This document shows, piece after piece, positions 6,341 to 18,168 of a stretch of DNA of 64,000 nucleotides (the stretch's first letter is position 1; each line of letters opens with the position of its first letter). Source of the stretch: Paludicola sp. MB14-C6 (lineage in GTDB: Bacteria; Bacillota; Clostridia; Oscillospirales; Ruminococcaceae); NCBI RefSeq assembly GCF_030908625.1, contig NZ_CP133133.1, forward strand, positions 2,294,001 to 2,358,000, written 5' to 3'. Under the pieces are notes generated by a model that was given only the letters and a program-made list of their open reading frames with translations, did no database searches and was not told the origin of the DNA. Made by a program: the position numbers and the translations under genes.

Positions 6341-6676
6341 ATAACTACCCTCGATGTTTATCTATTAATACCTAACATATCTTAGCACAACAACTTTAAA
6401 AGGTCTAGTGCGTTTTTGATTAAAAAAGATAGAAATAAAACTTTAAATATGGTAATTGTATCAGAAATGATAGTGCAAGTTCAGTAATATTTTGCAAAAC
6501 AGTTATTAAGAAATAAATTATGATGTTAATATAAAGTAAGCAATTGATTTTAATGTAATTTGTGCTATAATGTAGCTAAAATACAAATAAAGTAGTTTTC
6601 ATACATTGGAATCCATCCACAAAGATACTATACTGTATTCATCGGTAATGATTATATTTTGATTGGAGGAGTAAAA
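6341..6676. other. Divergent intergenic region upstream of the glucan-utilisation locus
   Basis: This 336-base A+T-rich gap separates the MATE gene (minus) from the sugar-binding protein gene (plus). Besides the promoter at 6544-6571 it contains an untranslated leader of about 100 bases. I see no clear cre-type catabolite site and no small gene. An AraC operator might lie here but no obvious direct repeat stands out. Confidence 0.4.
6544..6571 (+). promoter_or_regulatory. Extended -10 promoter for the sugar ABC operon
   Basis: TTGATT at 6544-6549 is followed after 16 bases by TATAAT at 6566-6571, preceded by TGC to give an extended -10 (TGnTATAAT). It precedes the binding-protein gene by about 100 bases. 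Confidence 0.7.
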
Positions 6677-7972
6677 ATGAAAAAAACATTTGCAAAAGGC
6701 ATTTCCATACTTCTAACAGTAATCATGGTTGCGTTATCCATTACTGGATGTGCACCTGATACGAAACAACAAAATTCAAATACGCAAGAAAATCCATCAT
6801 CAGGCCAAGCAACCCAAACTTTAAAACCTTGTAAACTAACTTTTTGGCATACATACGGTGATGGTGAGGAAGAACAATTAAAAAAAGTTGTACTTCCAAA
6901 ATGGAGTGCACTTCATCCTGAAATAACAATTGAACCAGTTAGGCAAGATGGTGGACAATTTCATCAAATGATAGTTACTGCATTTGGTACTGGTCAAACT
7001 CCTGATGTAGCTAGAATAGATATTGTGAATACAGCATCTTATGCTAAACAGGGTGGTATTATCGCTTTAGACGATATGAAAGGATTTGGCGAACTCAAAG
7101 AAAGCTTTTTGAAAGCACCAATGTCAACAAACTACTATAAGAATAAGTATTATGGACTTCCACTTGATACAAACTGTAAATCTGCTGTAGTAAATCAAAA
7201 CACAATGAAAAAAATAGGACTTGATAAGATTCCGGCTACGATGGAAGAATTTATTGCAGCTGCCGAGAAAAACGGTGGAGGAAAGTTCCGCTTAAATGTA
7301 TCTGGCGTTGGCGATTGGGATCTGTTCCCTTACTTTTGGCTTTTTGGCGGTGAATTAACTGATGCTAATTTTACAAAAGCAAGTGGATATATTGATTCTG
7401 AAGCAAGCATAAAAGCTATTCAAACTATGTTGGATTTAAATGCTAAAAAAGTATTTACAATTCGTGATGTAAATGGTTCTGTGGATGCTTGGGATGGTAT
7501 TAAAACAGGTGAATATGCAATGTTTTTCGAAGGACCTTGGTTCTTTGGTTCATATTCAGATACTGCAGCTGCAGGGATCATTCCATCTACTATTCCAACA
7601 TATAACGGAAAAACGACTTCTGTAGTTGGCGGTGAAAATATCGCAATTTTCGAAAATAGCAAAAATAAAAATGAAGCTTATGAGTTTATTAAGTTTATGG
7701 CATCAGAAGAGATTCAACTTGATATGCTTCAAAAAGGTCAACTTCCGGTTCTTAAGTCACTTGTAACGAACAAAGCTGTAACAGATAATCCAGTATGGTC
7801 TGTATACATGAAGCAAATGGAATCTGCAAGAGCTCGAATTCCATCTCCAAATCATACGGAAATTGGACAAATTTGGAGTGATGCAATGACAAATATATTT
7901 GCTAATAAAGCAGATGTGAAAAAAGAATTAGCCAAAGCTGCTACGTTAATAGACGAACAGCTTAAAGGTTAA
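6677..7972 (+). CDS. ABC transporter sugar-binding lipoprotein
   Basis: This extracellular solute-binding protein of family 1 (431 residues) delivers an oligosaccharide to the permease pair downstream. It has a lysine-rich start, a hydrophobic stretch and the lipobox SITGC, so it should be lipid-anchored on the outer face of the membrane. The mature part begins with a linker rich in Asn, Gln and Ser, followed by LTFWHTYGDGEEEQLKK, which is typical of sugar-binding proteins. A conserved aromatic segment occurs at FEGPWFFGSY. The start at 6677 has a GGAGG site; the upstream TTG at 6659 is rejected. The neighbouring GH66 enzymes suggest isomalto-oligosaccharides or cyclic forms as ligand. Confidence 0.9.
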   Translation: MKKTFAKGISILLTVIMVALSITGCAPDTKQQNSNTQENPSSGQATQTLKPCKLTFWHTYGDGEEEQLKKVVLPKWSALHPEITIEPVRQDGGQFHQMIVTAFGTGQTPDVARIDIVNTASYAKQGGIIALDDMKGFGELKESFLKAPMSTNYYKNKYYGLPLDTNCKSAVVNQNTMKKIGLDKIPATMEEFIAAAEKNGGGKFRLNVSGVGDWDLFPYFWLFGGELTDANFTKASGYIDSEASIKAIQTMLDLNAKKVFTIRDVNGSVDAWDGIKTGEYAMFFEGPWFFGSYSDTAAAGIIPSTIPTYNGKTTSVVGGENIAIFENSKNKNEAYEFIKFMASEEIQLDMLQKGQLPVLKSLVTNKAVTDNPVWSVYMKQMESARARIPSPNHTEIGQIWSDAMTNIFANKADVKKELAKAATLIDEQLKG

Positions 7973-7986
7973 CCCTAATTAAATTG

Positions 7987-8014
7987 TGTCTCACTCGCTT
8001 TAGCGAGTGAGACA
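7987..8014 (+). promoter_or_regulatory. Perfect hairpin between binding-protein and permease genes
   Basis: A 13-bp perfect inverted repeat with a 2-base centre (left arm TGTCTCACTCGCT) lies 15 bases after the binding-protein stop. It is not followed by a T tract. In many sugar ABC operons such stems protect the 3' end of the abundant binding-protein mRNA and reduce permease expression. That role is inferred here. Confidence 0.7.
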
Positions 8015-8075: not shown

Positions 8076-9011
8076 ATGAAAAAATCGACGATTACCTCAA
8101 GAAAAATTTCAAAGGGCGTACATGGATGGATAAGCGCCTTACCTTTTGTTTTACCTGGACTTATATTAGTTGCAATATTTGTAATATACCCAATGTTTTT
8201 TACGGTTAGAGTATCTTTGTCTAAATATCAAATTGTACAAGGAAAAATCGACTTTGTGGGCATTAAGAATTATATCAATATCTTCACCGATTCATCCTCA
8301 CGTTTTTGGTATGCATACCGAAATAATTTCCTTTATGCAATAGTAACAACACCATGCATTATTTTAGGTGGAATGGTTTTTGCATACTTAATTAACAATA
8401 TTAAGCGAGGTAAAACTATATTTAAAGTAGGTTTTTATTTGCCGGTAATCACTTCTTGGGTAATTGTTAGTTTAGTGTTTACCTATATGTTTAATAATTC
8501 AGATCGTGGGCTAATTAACTACATTCTGGTTGATGTGATGGGTATTCTTGATGACTATGTACCATGGCTATTACGTGAATGGTCTGGTAATTTAGCTATT
8601 TGGATTATGGGAATATGGAAGAATACCGGATGGGCTATGCTTATTTTCTTAGCAGCACTTCAAGGAATTCCTCAAGATTTATATGAGGCTGCAGAATTAG
8701 ATGGTGCAGGAAAATTTCAAAAATTTCATTATATTGTGATACCTGCATTGAGACCAACTACATACTTTGTTTTGGTAAATATGATAATCGGATCTTTTAA
8801 TGTCTTTATTCAAGTTTTGATGCTGACCGGAGGAAAGCCAAATGGTCGAACTTCTGTATTGCAGTATTTACTGTATGATAGGGCATTTAATCAATTTGAA
8901 TTTGGTGAAGCTTCTGCAATAGGCCTAATAACAGCTCTTACAATTTTATTAGTGACAACTCTTTTAAATCGAATGATGAAGTTGGATACTGTTGAAAAGG
9001 AGGGGGACTAG
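8076..9011 (+). CDS. ABC sugar transporter permease (MalF/UgpA type)
   Basis: This 311-residue inner-membrane permease has six predicted helices. The first follows a short cytoplasmic N-terminus, and the segment beginning SALPFVLPGLILVAIFVIY is typical of carbohydrate ABC permeases. The coupling EAA loop is clear (YEAAELDGAGKFQKF followed by IVIPALRPT), which docks onto the ATPase. A GGGGG site precedes the ATG. The stop codon is separated by one base from the start of the second permease, indicating translational coupling. It forms the heterodimeric channel with that protein and is fed by the lipoprotein encoded upstream. Confidence 0.92.
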   Translation: MKKSTITSRKISKGVHGWISALPFVLPGLILVAIFVIYPMFFTVRVSLSKYQIVQGKIDFVGIKNYINIFTDSSSRFWYAYRNNFLYAIVTTPCIILGGMVFAYLINNIKRGKTIFKVGFYLPVITSWVIVSLVFTYMFNNSDRGLINYILVDVMGILDDYVPWLLREWSGNLAIWIMGIWKNTGWAMLIFLAALQGIPQDLYEAAELDGAGKFQKFHYIVIPALRPTTYFVLVNMIIGSFNVFIQVLMLTGGKPNGRTSVLQYLLYDRAFNQFEFGEASAIGLITALTILLVTTLLNRMMKLDTVEKEGD

Positions 9012-9012
9012 T

Positions 9013-9894
9013 ATGAATGCAAAGAATACAAGCAGAAAAGCAGCGTCAAGAATAAGTCAGTTGATCATTTGGTTATTATTACTGACAGGACTAATTATAT
9101 TTTCTGTTCCGTTTTTATTTATGATTACAAATTCATTTGAAAAGTTTAGCTTTGTACTACCTTATCCTCCAAAATTGTTCCCTACTAAGTTGGATTTTTC
9201 TGCATATCAACATATTTTAAATATTCCAATTTTCACTACAGCTGTAATGAACAGTGTGATAAATACAATAGTTACTGTAATATTTGCTGTTTTTATTTCA
9301 ACACTTTCAGCGTATGGATTCGCTAAAATAAATTTTCCGGGCAGAGAAATGATATTTAAAATATACATATTCACTTTGATGATGCCGGCATTTTTAAATA
9401 TAATTCCTCAATTCGTTACTTTAAGAAATATAAGATTACCGGGATTTGAAGAAGGGTTAGTTGGAACGAGAGTAGGACTTATACTAATTTATGTGGCAAC
9501 TGGTATCTGCGGGCATACTTTCTTTCTTAGAAATTTTTTCCGTTCCTTACCTGATGCACTTGGTGAATCAGTTATTATGGATGGTGGTGGACATCCTACA
9601 ATATTTTTCAAAATAATACTTCCACTATCAAAACCGGCGCTTGGAACGATGACAATTTTTGCAATACAAGGAATATGGGAGGAATATTTTACTGCAAAGG
9701 TTTTAGTTGGAGCAAAAGAGAAAATGATTACACTGCCTTTGCTGCTGCAAAGACTGAATGGACAACATGCAACTCGGTGGGAATGGGTATTTGCGGCTTC
9801 AATTATTACGCTAATTCCAATTGTTATTTTGTTTATTTTTGCTCAGAAAAAAATGGTGGTAGGCGGGCTAATAGAAGGCTCCATAAAAGAATAA
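9013..9894 (+). CDS. ABC sugar transporter permease (MalG/AraQ type)
   Basis: The second permease subunit has 293 residues and about six helices. The EAA-loop region is recognisable but less canonical (LGESVIMDGGGHPTIFFKI followed by LPLSKPAL). The C-terminal MVVGGLIEGSIKE tail is the usual signature of MalG-like subunits. An AAGGAGG-type site inside the end of the upstream permease gene supports the ATG at 9013. No ATP-binding subunit gene follows, which is common for Firmicute oligosaccharide transporters that share an MsmX-type ATPase encoded elsewhere. Confidence 0.92.
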   Translation: MNAKNTSRKAASRISQLIIWLLLLTGLIIFSVPFLFMITNSFEKFSFVLPYPPKLFPTKLDFSAYQHILNIPIFTTAVMNSVINTIVTVIFAVFISTLSAYGFAKINFPGREMIFKIYIFTLMMPAFLNIIPQFVTLRNIRLPGFEEGLVGTRVGLILIYVATGICGHTFFLRNFFRSLPDALGESVIMDGGGHPTIFFKIILPLSKPALGTMTIFAIQGIWEEYFTAKVLVGAKEKMITLPLLLQRLNGQHATRWEWVFAASIITLIPIVILFIFAQKKMVVGGLIEGSIKE

Positions 9895-9991
9895 TCAGAT
9901 TTTTATTAGTCTATGATATAGAATTTTTGAGTGGCTTATCTTATTTTGCTGCTCAAGTTTCCTAGTTGAATCGAAAGGAATGGTCATATTA

Positions 9992-11680
9992 ATGGTACAA
10001 CATAATAAACAAATAACAACAGACTGTTGGCCTGAAAAAGCGCAGTATATAGTTGGAGAAGTTGTTACTTTGAAAATGATTCGACCAATACAAATAAAGA
10101 CATTACCTAATATATGCCTTTTTAGACTTGCAGATATTTTTCCGGCAGAGCCTATTTGGAATCAAACGAGTAGTCAAAAAGATGCAGAAATTTTAACAGC
10201 TTCTTTTTCTCAGCTTCCAGCAGGATATTACGGGGTTGAGATATCATGGGGAGATACCATTTTGTCAACTGCATTTGATATTACCAAAGATCGAAGACAG
10301 GATGTACGATATGGATTTATTTCTGATTTTAAACAAAGCGATTGTGGAGAAGAAGATATTCTTTTTGCAAATAAATTGCATCTTAATGCTATTCAGTTTT
10401 ATGATTGGATGTATCGTCATGATAATTTAGTATCCAAAGTCGAGTTATACAATGATCCAATGGGACGAGAGACATCTCTTTCGACTATAAGAACTAAAAT
10501 ACTTGCATGTAAAAAATATGGTATTCGTCCATTTGCATATGGAGCAATTTATGCGGCTACACAAGAATTATATAATCAACATCCCGAGTGGGCATTATAT
10601 ACTATTGATGGTGTACCGATGAAATTTGCAGACTGGCTCTATTTTATGAATACCTCTGAAAATTGTCCTTGGAGCAATTATATTGTGGAGCAATATGAAA
10701 ATAGTATAAGTGAATTAGGGTTTCAGGGTATTCATATGGATACTTATGGCTTTCCTAAGCATGTTCTTGATAATAATGGCTCAGCAGTAGCACTCGAAAA
10801 AACCTTTCCGAGCTTAATTGAACGCTCTGCTTGTGCTGTGAAAGAAATTGACTGTGAAGCAGGAGTCATTTTTAATGCAGTTAATAATTGGCCGATTGAA
10901 GAGGTAGCACCAACAAACCAAGATGCAGTCTATATTGAAGTGTGGCCTCCACATGATACTTATTTTGAATTATATCGTTTGATTCGCGAAGCAAAACAAA
11001 TAGCGCAAAAGCCAGTTGTTTTGGCTGCATATATGAAGCCTTTTTTAGGAGCAGAAACCAATGAAAGTATAACTGCTGCGGAAACCTCATTGCTGCTTAC
11101 ATTTGCTGTTATTAACGCTTCAGGTGGACGTCAGTTAGTTTTTGGTGAAAATAAAGGTATATTGTGTGACAGTTACTATGCTAATTATGCCGTTATTAGA
11201 GATAGTTTTCTTTCGGTTGTGCGAAACTATTGTGATTTTGCTGTTCGTTACTCTCCTTTGCTTGAATATAATTCCGCTGTGGATATTTCAATGACTGCCG
11301 CTAACGGAATTAACGAAGATATATTATTTCATGCAAAAGAGGATATTCGTTTTTCTTCTAATGCACAAGCTGATACTGTGTGGACAATTATAAGAGAATA
11401 TGAAGAGCGTTTGGTAATTCATCTTATAAATTTATCGGGTATTACTCAGCAGTGGAACGAGCCTAAATTACAACGTCCTAATTCAGTACAAGATATTGAA
11501 ATTAAGCTATTGATTAACCATAGATTTAGTAATATTTATGTTGCATCTCCCGATTTTCAAGGAGGAACAGCTCAAATTCTTGAGTACCGTAAAGAAACAC
11601 AAAATAACGGTCAATATGTTTTTATCAAAGTACCCAACCTTGAAATATGGGATACTGTTTGGATCGAGTTAATTCAATAA
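9992..11680 (+). CDS. Cytoplasmic glycoside hydrolase family 66 enzyme (dextranase/cycloisomaltooligosaccharide glucanotransferase-like)
   Basis: GH66 enzymes act on alpha-1,6-glucans: endo-dextranases hydrolyse them and CITases cyclise them. This 562-residue protein has no signal peptide, so it should work on imported oligosaccharides. It has an N-terminal beta-sandwich, then a (beta/alpha)8 barrel starting at RYGFISDF with the family motif NAIQFYDWMYRHD. Candidate catalytic residues are D250 (nucleophile, GIHMDTYG) and E316 (acid/base, YIEVWPP), 66 residues apart. There is a C-terminal beta-domain. It lacks the CBM35 insertion of secreted CITases and of the large protein downstream. The start at 9992 is chosen from the AAAGGA site; the ATG at 9980 overlaps it. 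Hydrolysis of imported cyclic or linear isomalto-oligosaccharides is the likely role. Confidence 0.85.
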   Translation: MVQHNKQITTDCWPEKAQYIVGEVVTLKMIRPIQIKTLPNICLFRLADIFPAEPIWNQTSSQKDAEILTASFSQLPAGYYGVEISWGDTILSTAFDITKDRRQDVRYGFISDFKQSDCGEEDILFANKLHLNAIQFYDWMYRHDNLVSKVELYNDPMGRETSLSTIRTKILACKKYGIRPFAYGAIYAATQELYNQHPEWALYTIDGVPMKFADWLYFMNTSENCPWSNYIVEQYENSISELGFQGIHMDTYGFPKHVLDNNGSAVALEKTFPSLIERSACAVKEIDCEAGVIFNAVNNWPIEEVAPTNQDAVYIEVWPPHDTYFELYRLIREAKQIAQKPVVLAAYMKPFLGAETNESITAAETSLLLTFAVINASGGRQLVFGENKGILCDSYYANYAVIRDSFLSVVRNYCDFAVRYSPLLEYNSAVDISMTAANGINEDILFHAKEDIRFSSNAQADTVWTIIREYEERLVIHLINLSGITQQWNEPKLQRPNSVQDIEIKLLINHRFSNIYVASPDFQGGTAQILEYRKETQNNGQYVFIKVPNLEIWDTVWIELIQ

Positions 11681-11826
11681 AATTAAAACATATACAACCG
11701 AAATAACTGAATGGTGAAATTGCAAAATATGTAATATAAGAAGTGAGCTTTTGATATTATAACAAATGGGGTTAATATTTTTGTATGAAAGTACTAAAGT
11801 TATTTAACAACAGAAAGGAAATAATC

Positions 11827-12747
11827 ATGTTGTTTTCATATGATACAGAAATTCTTCCTGAAGTTCGCATGATAGGACAAATTAAATATCCGGGTCAATG
11901 GGTACATTTTAGCCGAGTTATTGATGAATATATTATGTATTTGATTAAGGAAGGCGATATGTACATTGAGGAAAAAGGAATACAATATCATCTAAAGCCC
12001 GGCGATTTATTCATACTAGAGCCCAACAAGCCTCATTTTGGATATAAAGCAGCTTCTTGCAATTATTACTATGTTCATTTTCAAAATATATCTTTCATTC
12101 CTTTAGCAGATGATAAAGAACGCTTTGCAATGAATGAGTTAGCCGATAAAAGAATCACATCACTTGCAAGTTACAATCTTGATAGTGGAAATGTTACTGA
12201 TTCAATTACATATATTCCAAAGCTGTTTTCCATACAAAATCAAGAATTTCGAACAATTTTAAAAGAATCAATTGATATTTATAATCATCGAGAAGAACAT
12301 TACAAACGAGCTTCATCGACTTTGTTGCATTTGTTTTTGCTTCAAGTTGCACATGCAAACTTAATACAACATAATGCAAATCAAATTTCTACTCATATAA
12401 AAAAATCAGCAGTAGTGGTAGAGAAAATTTTAAAATATTTAAATAATAATTATTATGAAAAAGTAAGCAGTAGCTTAATTGAAAAAACATTTGAGGTCAA
12501 TTTTGATTATATTAATAGAGTTTTTTCGGATATTACTGGAAACACCATTTTTCATTATTTAAATATTCTTCGTATTAACCATGCAAAAGAATTGATTGCA
12601 ACTACAAATTTGACATTCAGTGAGATCGGATATTTAGTAGGTATTGATGATCGTTATTATTTTACAAAGCAATTTAAAAAATATGTAGGGATGACACCGA
12701 CGGAATATTATAAAAGCGTAAATACATCGAATAAGAAAGAAGAGTGA
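11827..12747 (+). CDS. AraC family transcriptional regulator
   Basis: The 306-residue regulator has an N-terminal cupin-type sensor domain (KEGDMYIEEKGIQYHLKPGD, then LEPNKPHFGY). Its C-terminal double helix-turn-helix DNA-binding domain covers about residues 195-300 (typical end FSEIGYLVGIDDRYYFTKQFKKYVGMTP, here split by an atypical DDRY). It lies between the intracellular GH66 gene and the secreted GH66-GH15 gene, so it most likely activates the locus in response to an isomalto-oligosaccharide. The ATG at 11827 follows GAAAGGA; the upstream in-frame start at 11785 lacks a good site. Confidence 0.9.
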   Translation: MLFSYDTEILPEVRMIGQIKYPGQWVHFSRVIDEYIMYLIKEGDMYIEEKGIQYHLKPGDLFILEPNKPHFGYKAASCNYYYVHFQNISFIPLADDKERFAMNELADKRITSLASYNLDSGNVTDSITYIPKLFSIQNQEFRTILKESIDIYNHREEHYKRASSTLLHLFLLQVAHANLIQHNANQISTHIKKSAVVVEKILKYLNNNYYEKVSSSLIEKTFEVNFDYINRVFSDITGNTIFHYLNILRINHAKELIATTNLTFSEIGYLVGIDDRYYFTKQFKKYVGMTPTEYYKSVNTSNKKEE

Positions 12748-12798: not shown

Positions 12799-15700
12799 AT
12801 GTGTAAAAAAACTTGTGCATTAGTATTATCCTTTAGCTTGATACTCTCATTGTTTTTATCAAGCACAACCGTTTCTGCATTAGCCTTAGATGGAAAATCA
12901 GTGCCTACATCTAGTATAGCAACCACAAACGTTAAAGTCATAAATAATGTTAGTACTGATAAGGCAAGATATGAGCCGGGAAGTAATGCAGTTATTAGTG
13001 TTGACCTTGTTAATGCTACTACTACATCTTGGAATGGAGTAATTACATTAGAGATTACCCATCTTAATAATCTGGTTCAAACCTTGACACAGTCAACTAG
13101 TATAGCCGCAAACCAATCAAAATCAATTACATTCACATGGCAATTGCCAACCAATGATTTTACCGGCTATTTAGTTAAGGCTTCCAGCTCAGCTGATGAT
13201 TTTTCTACAACAGCAATTGATTGCTCCAGTAATGTTAGCCGTTTCCCAAGATACGGTTATATTGCTGATTTCCCTCAGGGCCAAACACAAGCCCAAAGCG
13301 ATGCTATGATATCTGAACTGACAAAAGACTATCATATTAATGCGTTTCAATTCTATGACTGGATGTGGCGCCATGAAACTCTTATTAAGCGTCAGAACGG
13401 TGTTGTATCACCAACATGGAACGATTTGTTTAACAGAACAATATCATGGCAAACAATTTTAAATAATATTTCTTCTGTTCATTCCAACAACGCAAAGGCG
13501 ATGGCTTATGTAATGTCATATGCTGCTCGTGAAGGATATGAACAGTATGGAATTAATCCAGCACAGGGGCTTTATTCAGATAAAAGCCATGCAAACCAAT
13601 TAAATGTAGATTTTGGAAATGGTCAAACGTATCTTAAACTTTTTAATCCTAAAGATAGATTGTGGCAAAATAAGATGGTTCAGGAGTATGCGGATGCAAT
13701 TAACACAGCTGGTTTTGATGGGCTGCAAATGGACCAAATGGGTCAACGAAATAATGTGTATGATTATTTAGGCAGACCTGTTTATCTTGAGGATACTTTC
13801 TCCGATTTGGTAAATGCTTCAAAAAGTCATTTAACAAAAAATAATTCTCAAAAAAATGCCGTAACATTTAATATTGTTGATGGGACAGTTAATGGATGGG
13901 CGTTGAATGATGTTGCAGCTAATGCCAATACAGATTTTAGCTTTAGTGAAATATGGTGGAAATCAAACAGCTACAATGACATGAAGAATTATATTGAACA
14001 GGTTCGTGAAAAGACTGATGGTAAAGCGTTGGTATTAGCAGCTTATATGAACTACAAAGACAATTGTGGTCTTAAATATGAAGCGGAAAATGCTATACGC
14101 TATAATACAAATATTGCAACAAATCATACTGGCTATACCGGAACAGGATTTGTTGATAGCTTTGATACAATAGGCGATTCTGTTTCATTTCCGATTACTA
14201 TTCAAGAAGCAGGCAATTATTCCTTTGTATTTCGTTATGCAAACTCAATTGGTTCAACTGCTAACAGAAATATATATGTTGATGGCTCTTTAATCGGACG
14301 TGTAGATTGTAAAAACCTTCCTTCATGGGATAGCTGGGCACATGATGCTTCTATTGCAAGCTATTTAAGTGTAGGAACACATACAATAAAAATTGCATAT
14401 GATTCAAACAATATTGGCGCTATTAACTTAGATAGCCTAACACTTGGAACATTTGATGAAAATTCTGTAAGGTTAGCAAATGCAACTTTTGCTGCAAGTG
14501 GTGCATCTCATATTGAGCTTGGAACCGGAAAAACTCATGCTAATATGTTGTCACATGAATACTATCCTTCAAATGGAAAGTCAATGCGTAAATCATTAAG
14601 AGATGCTATGTCGAAGCAATATGACTTTATTACTGCATACGAAAATTTGTTGTATGATGCTGATATTAACTATTCTGATGGTGGATTACAAAATATTTCA
14701 ATATCCGGTGAGCAAGTAACGGGCAGTGGAGAAAGTAATAAAATTTGGTATATCAATCGGCAAAAAGACGATTATCAAATATTACATCTAATTAACCTAA
14801 CTGGTGAAAACGATACGGAATGGCGTAATGCAACGAATACGCCTGTTATGAAAAATAATATGGCAGTGAAGTATTATGTAGGACCAAATGCAAATATTTC
14901 TAATGTATACGTTGCATCACCTGATTATAATCAATGTATTAGTCAAGAACTTACATTTACAACCGGTGTAGATGATAAAGGAACATATGTATCCTTTACA
15001 GTTCCAAAACTAGAATATTGGGATATGATTTATCTCAAGAGAAATATTCAATCACCTTCTCTATCTATTTATGAAGCTGAAAGTGCTGTTAAATCTGGAG
15101 TGGCTGTTAATACAAATCATTCAGGTTATACAGGAACAGGCTTTGTAGATTGCTTTGGTGAAAATTATGATACTGTTACATTTACAGTAAACGCATTAAA
15201 GGATGCTGATTATTCTCTTAAATTTCGATATGCAAATGCCTCTGGTGGTGAAGCAACAAGAGCTATTTTAGTTGATGGAAAATTTATTAATAAAGCGTAT
15301 TTTAAAAGTTTAGCTAATTGGGATACATGGGGATATGCAGAACTTGGAGTAGCATTAACAAAAGGCCCACATACCATTGTTGTTTTATATGATCAATATC
15401 AAACTGGCCCTATCAATCTGGATCATATGCTACTTAATGTAAAAGAGGAAAGTGCGAGAAGTCTGTATCTAAACAACTGGAAGGATACAGTAGCAATTTG
15501 GCAAGATACATTTACTAATCAAAATACACCACTAAATGGTAGCGGACCTGGCTTATATGAGCTGCGCTATTTTGATGGTAATGTGAATTCAAATTATAAT
15601 GTCAATAATATAAAGAATTATTCGTCCTTCTTAAGGGATCAAGCATCTAGTGTTGCTTATACTACAGGAACAAAATTCGCATCTAGCGGATATTTTAATG

Positions 15701-18168
15701 GCGATGGAATATTGGTAAACGAATATAACACATATGATAATAACAGTTTGCCGGTAAAAATGACACGTAACTTCGCATTTGTCCCAGAAAAGAATTTCAT
15801 AATAGTTAAATATGATTTTACAAATCCTTCCACCTCTCAAAAGGCTGTAAAAGTATTGGATATGTTACATCCTAACAATAAAATGACTAGTCAGAATATT
15901 AGTGCAAACTACAATCCTATTACTAAAACTACTATTATAAATATGAGCAATTCACAACAACCTTATTTAGCTCATGGTATATTAGATGCAACAGGTAGTT
16001 TTTCATATCAAGTGGCAAATGATACGATTTCTAATCTTAATAACCAAGCCTGTTCTCCTTGGCATACATTTAATAATAATGGTACTATACAGAATAATAG
16101 CTCTGTTACATGTGCAGACATTTCAACTGCATATGCAAAAGAATTATCTTTGCCAGCTGGTTCAACGCAAAGTGTTTATTTCTATGTAGCGATTGCTAAA
16201 GATAATTCAGCTATCAATGCAACCATTAACGAGGCAATAGCACATGATGGAGCATATTGGATGCAGTATACAGCATCAAAATATCATGATTGGCTAAATA
16301 GTGGTAAACATACTAATTATGAAGAAAAGTCTTTAAATGATGCATACAACAATATTCTCGTTACAACAAAACAATCAACTGTTCCTGGCGATATTACTAT
16401 CAATGGCACTACAAAATCAAAGTTTGCTGCTTGTCCAGCTACAACCAATCCATCTGCTTATTCATACAAAGTATGGGCAAGAGATTCTGCTGTGACGGCA
16501 ATGTCTCTTGATGCAACTGGCCATTTAAAGGAAGCGGGAAACTATTGGACTTGGTTAGCAGATCGACAAATTAAAACGGATGAAGGCTCATGGAAAAAGC
16601 CTGGTACATTTTGGACTTGTTACTCTATTTGGGATAATAGCCCTATATCATTTGTAGAGCCTGAATATGACTCTATTGGAATGTTCCTAGTTGGCGCATA
16701 TAAACATTATGAGTTTTTACCTACAAATGAAAAAGCAGAATTTTTAAATAAAATATGGCCTTCCTATAAATTAAGTGCTGATTATGTCCTTAATAACATT
16801 ACTTCTGCTGGATTCGGTCCTGCTGACTGTAGTATATGGGAGGAGCAATCAGAGTTTAATTCCTTTACTCAGGCACTTTATGTTGCAGGATTGGATGCTG
16901 CACAATATATGGCATCAGCTATGGGACGACAAGATATAGCTGACATGTATAATGGCGGAGCATCTGCAATGCGCACTGCAATTCAACGAGATGATACGGC
17001 TTATCCAAAAGGACTTTGGAATGTTGCCGAGCAATATTTTAATCGTGCGGTATCTTTGAATGGAAATGCAAACACCATTCACGATTCATCATCCAATGTT
17101 TTAATTCCTTATGGCGTAATAGATGCTACATCATCTAGAGCAAAATCACATATTGATAAAACATTAGCAGCTTTGGCGCATGACACCTATGGAATTGCTC
17201 GTTATGAAAATGATGGTTTCTATCATCGTATGCCTTGGGATCCAGGCGGAAATGAAGCTTTAGAAGATGAACCATCTTGGCCACAAATGGCTATGTGGGT
17301 TGCAATGTATGAAATTCAATCTGGCTATCAATCTTACAAAGCAAATGCTTACGAAAGATTGAAATGGTTTGTAAGTCGCACAGCAAAAGGATATATGCCA
17401 CAGGGCGAATGTTGTTCAAATATAACTTTGAAACCACTCGTTAGTACAATGTGTGAGCCAATTACTGGTGCAGCGTATCTTATGACCGCATTAGCATATG
17501 AAAATCAATTTGATATGCGGGTATTTTCACCACAAGCGAATGCTGGTGCAAATAAAAATATTACGATAGTTAATGGTTGTGCGGGTGATTGGGAACAATG
17601 GAGTAATATTCCATACTACGTTGACCGCACAGGAGATGCTGCTTTGTCTGATAAAAATTATGACATGGAGCGTGTTTATCTAGCAAATGATTCAGATAAT
17701 TTATATTGTCGTATTGATACAGTAGGCAGAAATTTACCAGGCTATCAGTCATCAGATAAGTTTGCTGTTCAAGTATATTCTGAAGATTTTGCAAGTACAG
17801 CAAATTCAACGAATACCGGAATTTATGGAAACGGTTTTACTCATAATATGAGCTATATGTTAACTCGAAGTAACCAAAATAGTGATTATAAAAAATATTC
17901 TGTTTCTAATAATACTTGGATACAACAAGCAAATGTAGCTAACATTATAGCTCCACAATGGGAAACTAATTCCGGAAGAATTGAAATGGCCATCCCATTT
18001 TCAGCATTATCCAGTACAGGCGCTGTTGGTGATAATAATTGGGCTAATTTAGTTATCGTTTTAACAAAAGAAACTTCTCCGGGAGTATGGACTCAGATGG
18101 ATACATTAGCTATTCATTATCGTAAAACAGGTTCTGGAATTGAATGGATTAAAGGCAACTTCGAATAA
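12799..18168 (+). CDS. Secreted multidomain alpha-1,6-glucanase: GH66-CBM35-CBM35-GH15-like fusion
   Basis: This 1789-residue secreted protein begins with a signal peptide (hydrophobic core to about residue 28, VSALA before cleavage). A GH66 domain spans about 30-750, with the motif NAFQFYDWMWRHE (181-193), candidate nucleophile D312 (GLQMDQMG) and acid/base E384 (FSFSEIWW). It is interrupted by a CBM35-type module at 427-550, as in known CITases. A second CBM35 follows at 757-880, and the two share the motif GYTGTGFVD. Residues 881-1170 look like the beta-sandwich domain of bacterial GH15 enzymes. Residues 1175-1575 form an (alpha/alpha)6 GH15-like catalytic domain (YKVWARDS at 1223-1230, IWEE with putative acid E1348, putative base E1537). 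The last 200 residues resemble a CBM9-like glucodextranase tail. No cell-wall anchor is seen. It should cut dextran internally and release glucose from chain ends. Confidence 0.85.
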   Translation: MCKKTCALVLSFSLILSLFLSSTTVSALALDGKSVPTSSIATTNVKVINNVSTDKARYEPGSNAVISVDLVNATTTSWNGVITLEITHLNNLVQTLTQSTSIAANQSKSITFTWQLPTNDFTGYLVKASSSADDFSTTAIDCSSNVSRFPRYGYIADFPQGQTQAQSDAMISELTKDYHINAFQFYDWMWRHETLIKRQNGVVSPTWNDLFNRTISWQTILNNISSVHSNNAKAMAYVMSYAAREGYEQYGINPAQGLYSDKSHANQLNVDFGNGQTYLKLFNPKDRLWQNKMVQEYADAINTAGFDGLQMDQMGQRNNVYDYLGRPVYLEDTFSDLVNASKSHLTKNNSQKNAVTFNIVDGTVNGWALNDVAANANTDFSFSEIWWKSNSYNDMKNYIEQVREKTDGKALVLAAYMNYKDNCGLKYEAENAIRYNTNIATNHTGYTGTGFVDSFDTIGDSVSFPITIQEAGNYSFVFRYANSIGSTANRNIYVDGSLIGRVDCKNLPSWDSWAHDASIASYLSVGTHTIKIAYDSNNIGAINLDSLTLGTFDENSVRLANATFAASGASHIELGTGKTHANMLSHEYYPSNGKSMRKSLRDAMSKQYDFITAYENLLYDADINYSDGGLQNISISGEQVTGSGESNKIWYINRQKDDYQILHLINLTGENDTEWRNATNTPVMKNNMAVKYYVGPNANISNVYVASPDYNQCISQELTFTTGVDDKGTYVSFTVPKLEYWDMIYLKRNIQSPSLSIYEAESAVKSGVAVNTNHSGYTGTGFVDCFGENYDTVTFTVNALKDADYSLKFRYANASGGEATRAILVDGKFINKAYFKSLANWDTWGYAELGVALTKGPHTIVVLYDQYQTGPINLDHMLLNVKEESARSLYLNNWKDTVAIWQDTFTNQNTPLNGSGPGLYELRYFDGNVNSNYNVNNIKNYSSFLRDQASSVAYTTGTKFASSGYFNGDGILVNEYNTYDNNSLPVKMTRNFAFVPEKNFIIVKYDFTNPSTSQKAVKVLDMLHPNNKMTSQNISANYNPITKTTIINMSNSQQPYLAHGILDATGSFSYQVANDTISNLNNQACSPWHTFNNNGTIQNNSSVTCADISTAYAKELSLPAGSTQSVYFYVAIAKDNSAINATINEAIAHDGAYWMQYTASKYHDWLNSGKHTNYEEKSLNDAYNNILVTTKQSTVPGDITINGTTKSKFAACPATTNPSAYSYKVWARDSAVTAMSLDATGHLKEAGNYWTWLADRQIKTDEGSWKKPGTFWTCYSIWDNSPISFVEPEYDSIGMFLVGAYKHYEFLPTNEKAEFLNKIWPSYKLSADYVLNNITSAGFGPADCSIWEEQSEFNSFTQALYVAGLDAAQYMASAMGRQDIADMYNGGASAMRTAIQRDDTAYPKGLWNVAEQYFNRAVSLNGNANTIHDSSSNVLIPYGVIDATSSRAKSHIDKTLAALAHDTYGIARYENDGFYHRMPWDPGGNEALEDEPSWPQMAMWVAMYEIQSGYQSYKANAYERLKWFVSRTAKGYMPQGECCSNITLKPLVSTMCEPITGAAYLMTALAYENQFDMRVFSPQANAGANKNITIVNGCAGDWEQWSNIPYYVDRTGDAALSDKNYDMERVYLANDSDNLYCRIDTVGRNLPGYQSSDKFAVQVYSEDFASTANSTNTGIYGNGFTHNMSYMLTRSNQNSDYKKYSVSNNTWIQQANVANIIAPQWETNSGRIEMAIPFSALSSTGAVGDNNWANLVIVLTKETSPGVWTQMDTLAIHYRKTGSGIEWIKGNFE

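Follow-up and report, generated by a model that had tools for sequence, protein, structure and literature searches.

A GH66 and GH15-type fusion protein

The window, a 64,000-nucleotide stretch from Paludicola sp. MB14-C6 (contig NZ_CP133133.1, positions 2,294,001 to 2,358,000), contains a gene at 12799..18168 that encodes a GH66 enzyme and a GH15-type module in one protein. A Pfam scan matches GH66 (residues 53-745), CBM35 twice, and GH15, the last weakly yet significantly, and the domains follow one another as GH66 with a CBM35 insert, a second CBM35, the GH15-type module and a tail of CBM9 fold. The N-terminal leader suggests that the protein is secreted. With good confidence, we read it as a bifunctional transglycosylase of the type of Thermoanaerobacter thermocopriae cycloisomaltooligosaccharide glucanotransferase (CITase; TtCITase) that would serve a pathway from starch to cycloisomaltooligosaccharides (CIs) and their import. 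The features of the gene are as follows.

12799..18168, + strand: GH66-GH15-type fusion gene, a single uninterrupted frame of 1789 residues
12799..12885, + strand: N-terminal signal peptide, residues 1-29 (by eye: hydrophobic stretch with ALA at its end)
12940..15042, + strand: GH66 catalytic part, residues 48-748 (top PDB match CITase 3wnk, E 3.9e-247)
13732..13734, + strand: D312, taken as the GH66 nucleophile (aligns with the position changed to Ala in 3wnl, the D308A mutant)
13948..13950, + strand: E384, taken as the GH66 acid/base (sequence position)
14068..14454, + strand: CBM35 insert within the GH66 part, residues 424-552 (Pfam, PDB alignment)
15058..15438, + strand: junction CBM35, residues 754-880, in the place of domain N1 of dextran dextrinase
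15439..16248, + strand: beta-sandwich domain N2 of the GH15-type module, residues 881-1150 (sequence and structure comparison)
16324..17523, + strand: (alpha/alpha)6-barrel of the GH15-type module, residues 1176-1575 (Pfam, PDB, structure comparison)
16840..16842, + strand: E1348, acid/base, equivalent to Glu671 of dextran dextrinase (121/121 rows)
17218..17223, + strand: F1474-Y1475 dyad, equivalent to Phe797-Tyr798 (Y in 121/121 rows, F in 97/121)
17404..17409, + strand: G1536-E1537 dyad, equivalent to Gly857-Glu858 (121/121 rows)
17539..18165, + strand: CBM9-fold C-terminal tail, residues 1581-1789 (structure comparison)

A preliminary description, made from the DNA sequence alone, had proposed this architecture, and the frame, Pfam and PDB searches confirm it: both enzyme families are matched within the same protein, and the frame passes through the junction CBM35 without a stop, with no frameshift between two genes. 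That description was right about the architecture and probably about a cyclising GH66 half, but probably not about a C-terminal half that releases glucose.

The GH66 half

The GH66 half (Pfam E 9.5e-148) has both the catalytic Asp and Glu. Among the matches listed, the equivalents of D312 and E384, whose roles we assume from the GH66 literature, are D and E in 58/58 fusions. The alignment with 3wnk covers residues 48-746, CBM35 insert included. The preliminary description had likened the barrel and its insertion to CITases; the closest PDB matches are CITases, and by analogy with characterised relatives this half would be of the CITase type, forming CIs.

An unlikely alternative is that the C-terminal module is a transferase while the GH66 half acts chiefly as an endo-dextranase and cyclises little, such that linear isomalto-oligosaccharides are made, trimmed and imported by the ABC system. 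GH66 includes both dextranases and CITases, and the ligands of the solute-binding protein TdCIBP include linear isomalto-oligosaccharides from 3 units upward (PMC13084667; this source and PMC12446779 are cited from extracts). It also counts against a cyclising half that chains 9sje-9sjh (576-592 aa), named CITase, align as two pieces flanking the insert, as dextranase 5axg does; the CBM35 insert is usual in CITases, not strictly defining. Yet the four best PDB matches are all insert-bearing CITases (E 7.1e-243 or better), far ahead of 5axg (E 6.4e-105), and we retain the CITase assignment.

The C-terminal module as a probable transglucosylase

For the C-terminal part, the PDB match is dextran dextrinase (9ju0), a retaining transglucosylase, which aligns with residues 881-1565 (E 2.3e-65). 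When residues 880-1575 are searched alone as a single sequence, 9ju0 is the sole PDB match up to E 1, and neither glucodextranase nor glucoamylase chains match up to that threshold. Together with the weak but significant Pfam match, the similarity to this GH15-fold enzyme places residues 1175-1575 within GH15, as first proposed; Pfam gives nothing for domain N2 up to E 5.

The catalytic residues point to the same enzyme. The Gly-Glu dyad sits in the alpha11-alpha12 loop and the Phe-Tyr dyad in the alpha9-alpha10 loop; among the matches listed, the latter is Phe-Tyr in 97/121 relatives and Tyr-Tyr in 24/121. Three inverting GH15 enzymes used for comparison have Gln after the general base Glu and Pro or Ser before it (PMC12446779). 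This signature is absent from the fusion, in which E1537 is preceded by Gly and followed by Cys. The preliminary description had pointed out that E1537, in a PQGE context, departs from the common PEQ pattern; the departure is real, but E1537 had been taken for the GH15 base. Given the dextran dextrinase signature of E1348, F1474-Y1475 and G1536-E1537, we read PQGE in place of PEQ as the mark of a transferase and E1537 as its probable nucleophile. For the equivalent Glu858 of dextran dextrinase, Tagami et al. report a position 1.2-1.6 A nearer to the anomeric carbon than in inverting enzymes, and a glycosynthase test with beta-glucosyl fluoride has been made on that residue. The module is thus probably not an exo-glucanase releasing glucose, as had been suggested, but a transglucosylase of the dextran dextrinase type; retention, linkage and alpha-1,4 donor specificity would be as in characterised relatives.

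Very unlikely, in our view, is dextran degradation, in which the GH66 half cuts or cyclises dextran while an inverting GH15 glucodextranase or glucoamylase frees glucose from the ends. It would account for the GH15 Pfam match, and both catalytic Glu residues are common to inverting GH15 enzymes. In Foldseek comparison of a structure model, the first protein behind dextran dextrinase is glucodextranase 1ug9, and the barrel alone matches inverting enzymes well, which weighs against a transferase. Against dextran degradation stand both dyads, the missing Gln and the lack of sequence matches described above; glucose release would also leave unexplained the CI-type binding protein and the signal-less second GH66 encoded nearby.

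In structure comparison, the junction CBM35 aligns with 9ju0 from model residue 3 on. A CBM35-like N1 before N2 occurs in almost half of the cluster of dextran dextrinase and GH15 4(6)-alpha-glucosyltransferases (46GTs), and is not strictly defining. The C-terminal tail has no Pfam match up to E 5, CBM9 profile included. The CBM9-like tail of the preliminary description therefore holds for the fold but not for the sequence profile, and we speak of a CBM9-like fold rather than of CBM9; the tail may bind alpha-glucan.

Gene neighbourhood and proposed pathway

Five genes lie upstream of the fusion gene, all on the same strand.

6659..7972, + strand: solute-binding protein of lipoprotein type (lipobox by eye; ATG 6677 is the more likely start)
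8076..9011, + strand: ABC permease 1 (Pfam)
8992..9894, + strand: ABC permease 2 (Pfam; start codon uncertain)
9980..11680, + strand: second GH66, without visible signal peptide and without CBM35 insert (Pfam, sequence)
11785..12747, + strand: AraC-type regulator, 51 bases upstream of the fusion gene

The solute-binding protein shares 36% identity with 9xf5 across 402 aligned residues. This entry is titled "ABC transporter substrate-binding protein", and we read it as TdCIBP from its residue numbering, length and entry pair. All of the residues named as contacting CIs or isomalto-oligosaccharides, which PMC13084667 gives as conserved among CI-binding proteins, are kept (9/9). The second GH66 is probably an intracellular dextranase that degrades CIs, and the locus as a whole is a complete candidate CI operon. 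A 12-pair hairpin lies at 7987-8014, between the genes for the solute-binding protein and the first permease; hairpins at such sites often go with unequal expression of the two genes.

Elsewhere, the genome encodes a GH13 amylase, whose leader is of lipoprotein type and has a lipobox (by eye), and a GH77 enzyme, both inside a stretch of less than 9 kb (G000:C1:178987-187859), probably a maltodextrin locus feeding the CI pathway. A further GH13 enzyme is oligo-1,6-glucosidase-like by its nearest PDB chains, while its top NCBIfam model, phosphotrehalase, is below cut-off. In family searches of the genome, the fusion is the only GH15 match, and GH31 has two.

In the pathway that we propose, the GH15-type module would take single glucosyl units off the non-reducing ends of alpha-1,4-glucans (starch fragments), hold them on E1537 and pass them on, with configuration retained, to position 6 of an acceptor, so that alpha-1,6 chains (isomalto-oligosaccharides) are built up. 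The GH66 module, with D312 as nucleophile, would cut these chains and close them into CIs, while the inserted CBM35 may hold the chain and the CBM9-fold tail may keep the protein on its alpha-glucan. CIs and long isomalto-oligosaccharides would then be captured by the solute-binding protein, imported via the two permeases, opened inside the cell by the second GH66 and finished to glucose by the oligo-1,6-glucosidase-like enzyme. The net effect would be to turn common starch into rings usable by few competitors. This scheme builds on the observed architecture, catalytic residues, family placement, gene neighbourhood and conservation of CI-contacting residues; import and the order of steps are modelled on characterised relatives.

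Relation to known systems

The preliminary description had considered a GH66/GH15 fusion unusual, but one has already been published. TtCITase (WP_028992696) carries both domains, and its C-terminal part converts malto-oligosaccharides to isomalto-oligosaccharides (PMC12446779 and PMC13084667, citing Jeong 2019 for the protein; PMC13084667 also cites Yang 2019, Hong 2022 and Park 2021). Fusion to GH66 is also described for some dextran-dextrinase-like enzymes (PMC12446779). The fusion is therefore already known in kind. By its published description, TtCITase resembles the present protein in joining a GH66 CITase with a GH15-like transglucosylase region (1184-1559, against 1176-1575 for the barrel here), and a solute-binding protein gene lies near the CITase gene.

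Gluconobacter oxydans dextran dextrinase (9ju0) shares the CBM35-like N1, N2, the (alpha/alpha)6 barrel, the Glu pair and both dyads; in contrast to the fusion, it has no GH66 half and no typical secretion signal, and ends in a beta-helix domain instead of a CBM9-fold tail. The CI locus of Tepidibacillus decaturensis clusters the same activities and transporter type, with the solute-binding protein residues conserved, but its GH15 46GT is an additional gene beside the CITase gene (PMC13084667). The glucodextranase of Arthrobacter globiformis (1ug9) differs as an inverting hydrolase with Pro-Glu-Gln, and has no detectable sequence match. In Paenibacillus, the corresponding glucosyltransferase is presumably a separate protein of GH31, not GH15, as PDB 5x7o suggests. 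As far as the extracts describe them, Paenibacillus sp. 598K and P. algidevorans (T-3040) also convert alpha-1,4-glucan to CIs with a 6-alpha-glucosyltransferase and a CITase, and strain 598K takes up CIs and has an intracellular dextranase.

What is new lies at the family level: dozens of relatives with the same architecture, four named loci with split genes, rejection of a single fusion clade, and interleaving junction CBM35s. In the open-licence literature we found no report of repeated fusion or of GH13 fusions, the latter without a search aimed at them.

Relatives and their loci

A search with the C-terminal module gave 65 proteins, including the fusion under study (P0001); an alignment-based search gave 493 proteins and a search with a separate CITase 192, with 120 listed in each case. 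Among the matches listed, 121 barrel rows comprise 61 GH66 fusions, 46 free transferases with CBM35, nine free without CBM35, and five fused to GH13. A few of the 61 are fragments, and P0006, P0025, P0116 and P0117 are incomplete. P0091, counted among the 46, was first labelled solo; with a match that begins partway into the CBM35, it is probably a cut fragment, and it adds one change in the barrel tree. The 17 tail-less fusions share one branch of that tree and include P0114, named Roseiflexaceae. Six relatives (P0013, P0018, P0022, P0038, P0040 and P0052) are named "GH15 family glucan-1,4-alpha-glucosidase" in the source; all have both transferase dyads, which corrects this misleading label.

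Of 18 named loci, ten have both halves in a single frame (L004-L012 and L017; L012 ends at a contig edge) and four have them as adjacent separate genes: L013 (Clostridium zeae), L014 (Caproicibacter fermentans), L015 (Clostridium sp. C8-1-8) and L021 (C. oryzae). The four split loci are what could suggest that two genes were joined here by assembly or sequencing error, but this is hardly credible given the ten one-frame fusions, the frame crossing the CBM35 and P0002, a one-frame protein from another contig with 89% identity over the module. The remaining four (L016, L018-L020) have a transferase without a CITase directly upstream. Two of their transferase frames are apparently broken, by decay or sequencing error: L020:10379-12366 (Clostridium manihotivorum) and L019:10013-13020 (Paenibacillus cymbidii). 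Because both enzymes occur naturally fused and unfused, it can be tested whether fusion itself raises the cyclodextran yield from starch.

In L004-L007 and L017, the fusion has relatives of four of its neighbours here beside it, namely the solute-binding protein, the two permeases and the second GH66 (46-74% identity); the same four-gene set adjoins the unfused or lone transferase in L013, L015, L020 and L021 (34-44%, some cut off at the stretch edge). In L009-L011, permease identity is only 28-32%, and a search at E 1e-10 gave no solute-binding protein. L008 has a second GH66 at the contig end, and L012 is too short to show neighbours. L016 and L019 have permeases only (25-30% identity), and none of the set was found in L014 and L018. 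Beside the C. zeae CITase and transferase lies a third large gene (L013:15677-18811, 1044 aa) that matches no module used.

Other architectures also occur. P0055, P0061, P0062, P0063 and P0088 (1626-1631 aa), one tree branch, join the transferase to a C-terminal GH13 alpha-amylase domain (positions 1062-1416 in P0062, the only one of the five scanned), possibly as one-piece starch-to-alpha-1,6-glucan enzymes. In P0118, which lacks CBM35, starch-binding CBM25 and CBM26 modules precede the transferase module. P0123 and P0125-P0128 (1761-1771 aa; P0128 named Ardenticatenaceae) combine GH66 and CBM35 with a different C-terminal half, of which one part in P0128 is 25% identical to the GH15-type barrel and matches no Pfam family up to E 0.01.

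History of the fusion

A single clade of all fusions was rejected in a barrel tree of 46 rows hand-picked from the 121: forcing its 22 fusions together costs 107 log units (approximately unbiased [AU] test, p 2.5e-05; root not fixed). One fusion, P0051, is placed among CBM-less free transferases. With P0051 removed, the AU p for a single clade is 0.037 for a group picked after seeing the tree, and we therefore do not claim more than two origins. The pattern may stem from repeated gain or from later splitting of the gene.

In an unrooted tree of 90 CBM35s (thinned from 223 non-insert CBM35s, 128 columns), the N-terminal CBM35s of free transferases form one side of a branch (100/98; 200/200 bootstrap trees), while the junction CBM35s are intermixed with C-terminal ones from transferase-free proteins, separate CITases included. 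The junction domain of the fusions thus looks CITase-derived, and the simplest path would join a CITase ending in CBM35 to a CBM35-less transferase (920-aa type, P0093-P0098). Recombination between tandem CBM35s, at the end of a CITase and the start of a transferase, left no sign in this tree. Three observations speak against too simple a picture: the free-transferase branch adjoins the group holding P0001 (weak support, 80/60), P0001 itself is placed with support of 84/85, and two of the "C-terminal" CBM35 rows, P0123 and P0125, come from proteins with another C-terminal half. Domain N1 has been suggested to come from a GH66 protein (PMC12446779); in free transferases, such an origin would fit the unrooted tree, which does not decide it.

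It is a doubtful idea that fusion arose more than once and was kept for direct hand-over of the transferase product to the cyclising half. Two retaining glycosyl transfers would then be coupled across a shared CBM35 with a double role, as domain N1 in the transferase and as the part that holds the chain for the CITase. If true, fused CI factories and GH13-transferase fusions would represent an overlooked, widespread conversion of starch to private alpha-1,6 sugars.

Distribution in the class and family

Across 391 genomes of the same class, a strong match to the module occurs only in the organism's own genome. Another 26 match at E 1e-17 or weaker (23-31% identity), with frames of 419-704 aa in 25 and 2639 in one, and look like ordinary GH15. 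Among 148 genomes of the same family, 19 match somewhere, mostly in CBM35 alone, and the full protein occurs only in the own genome. We read this scatter across class and family as patchy inheritance. One family genome (G097) has a 911-aa CITase-like frame (45% identity over 35-877) beside a second GH66.
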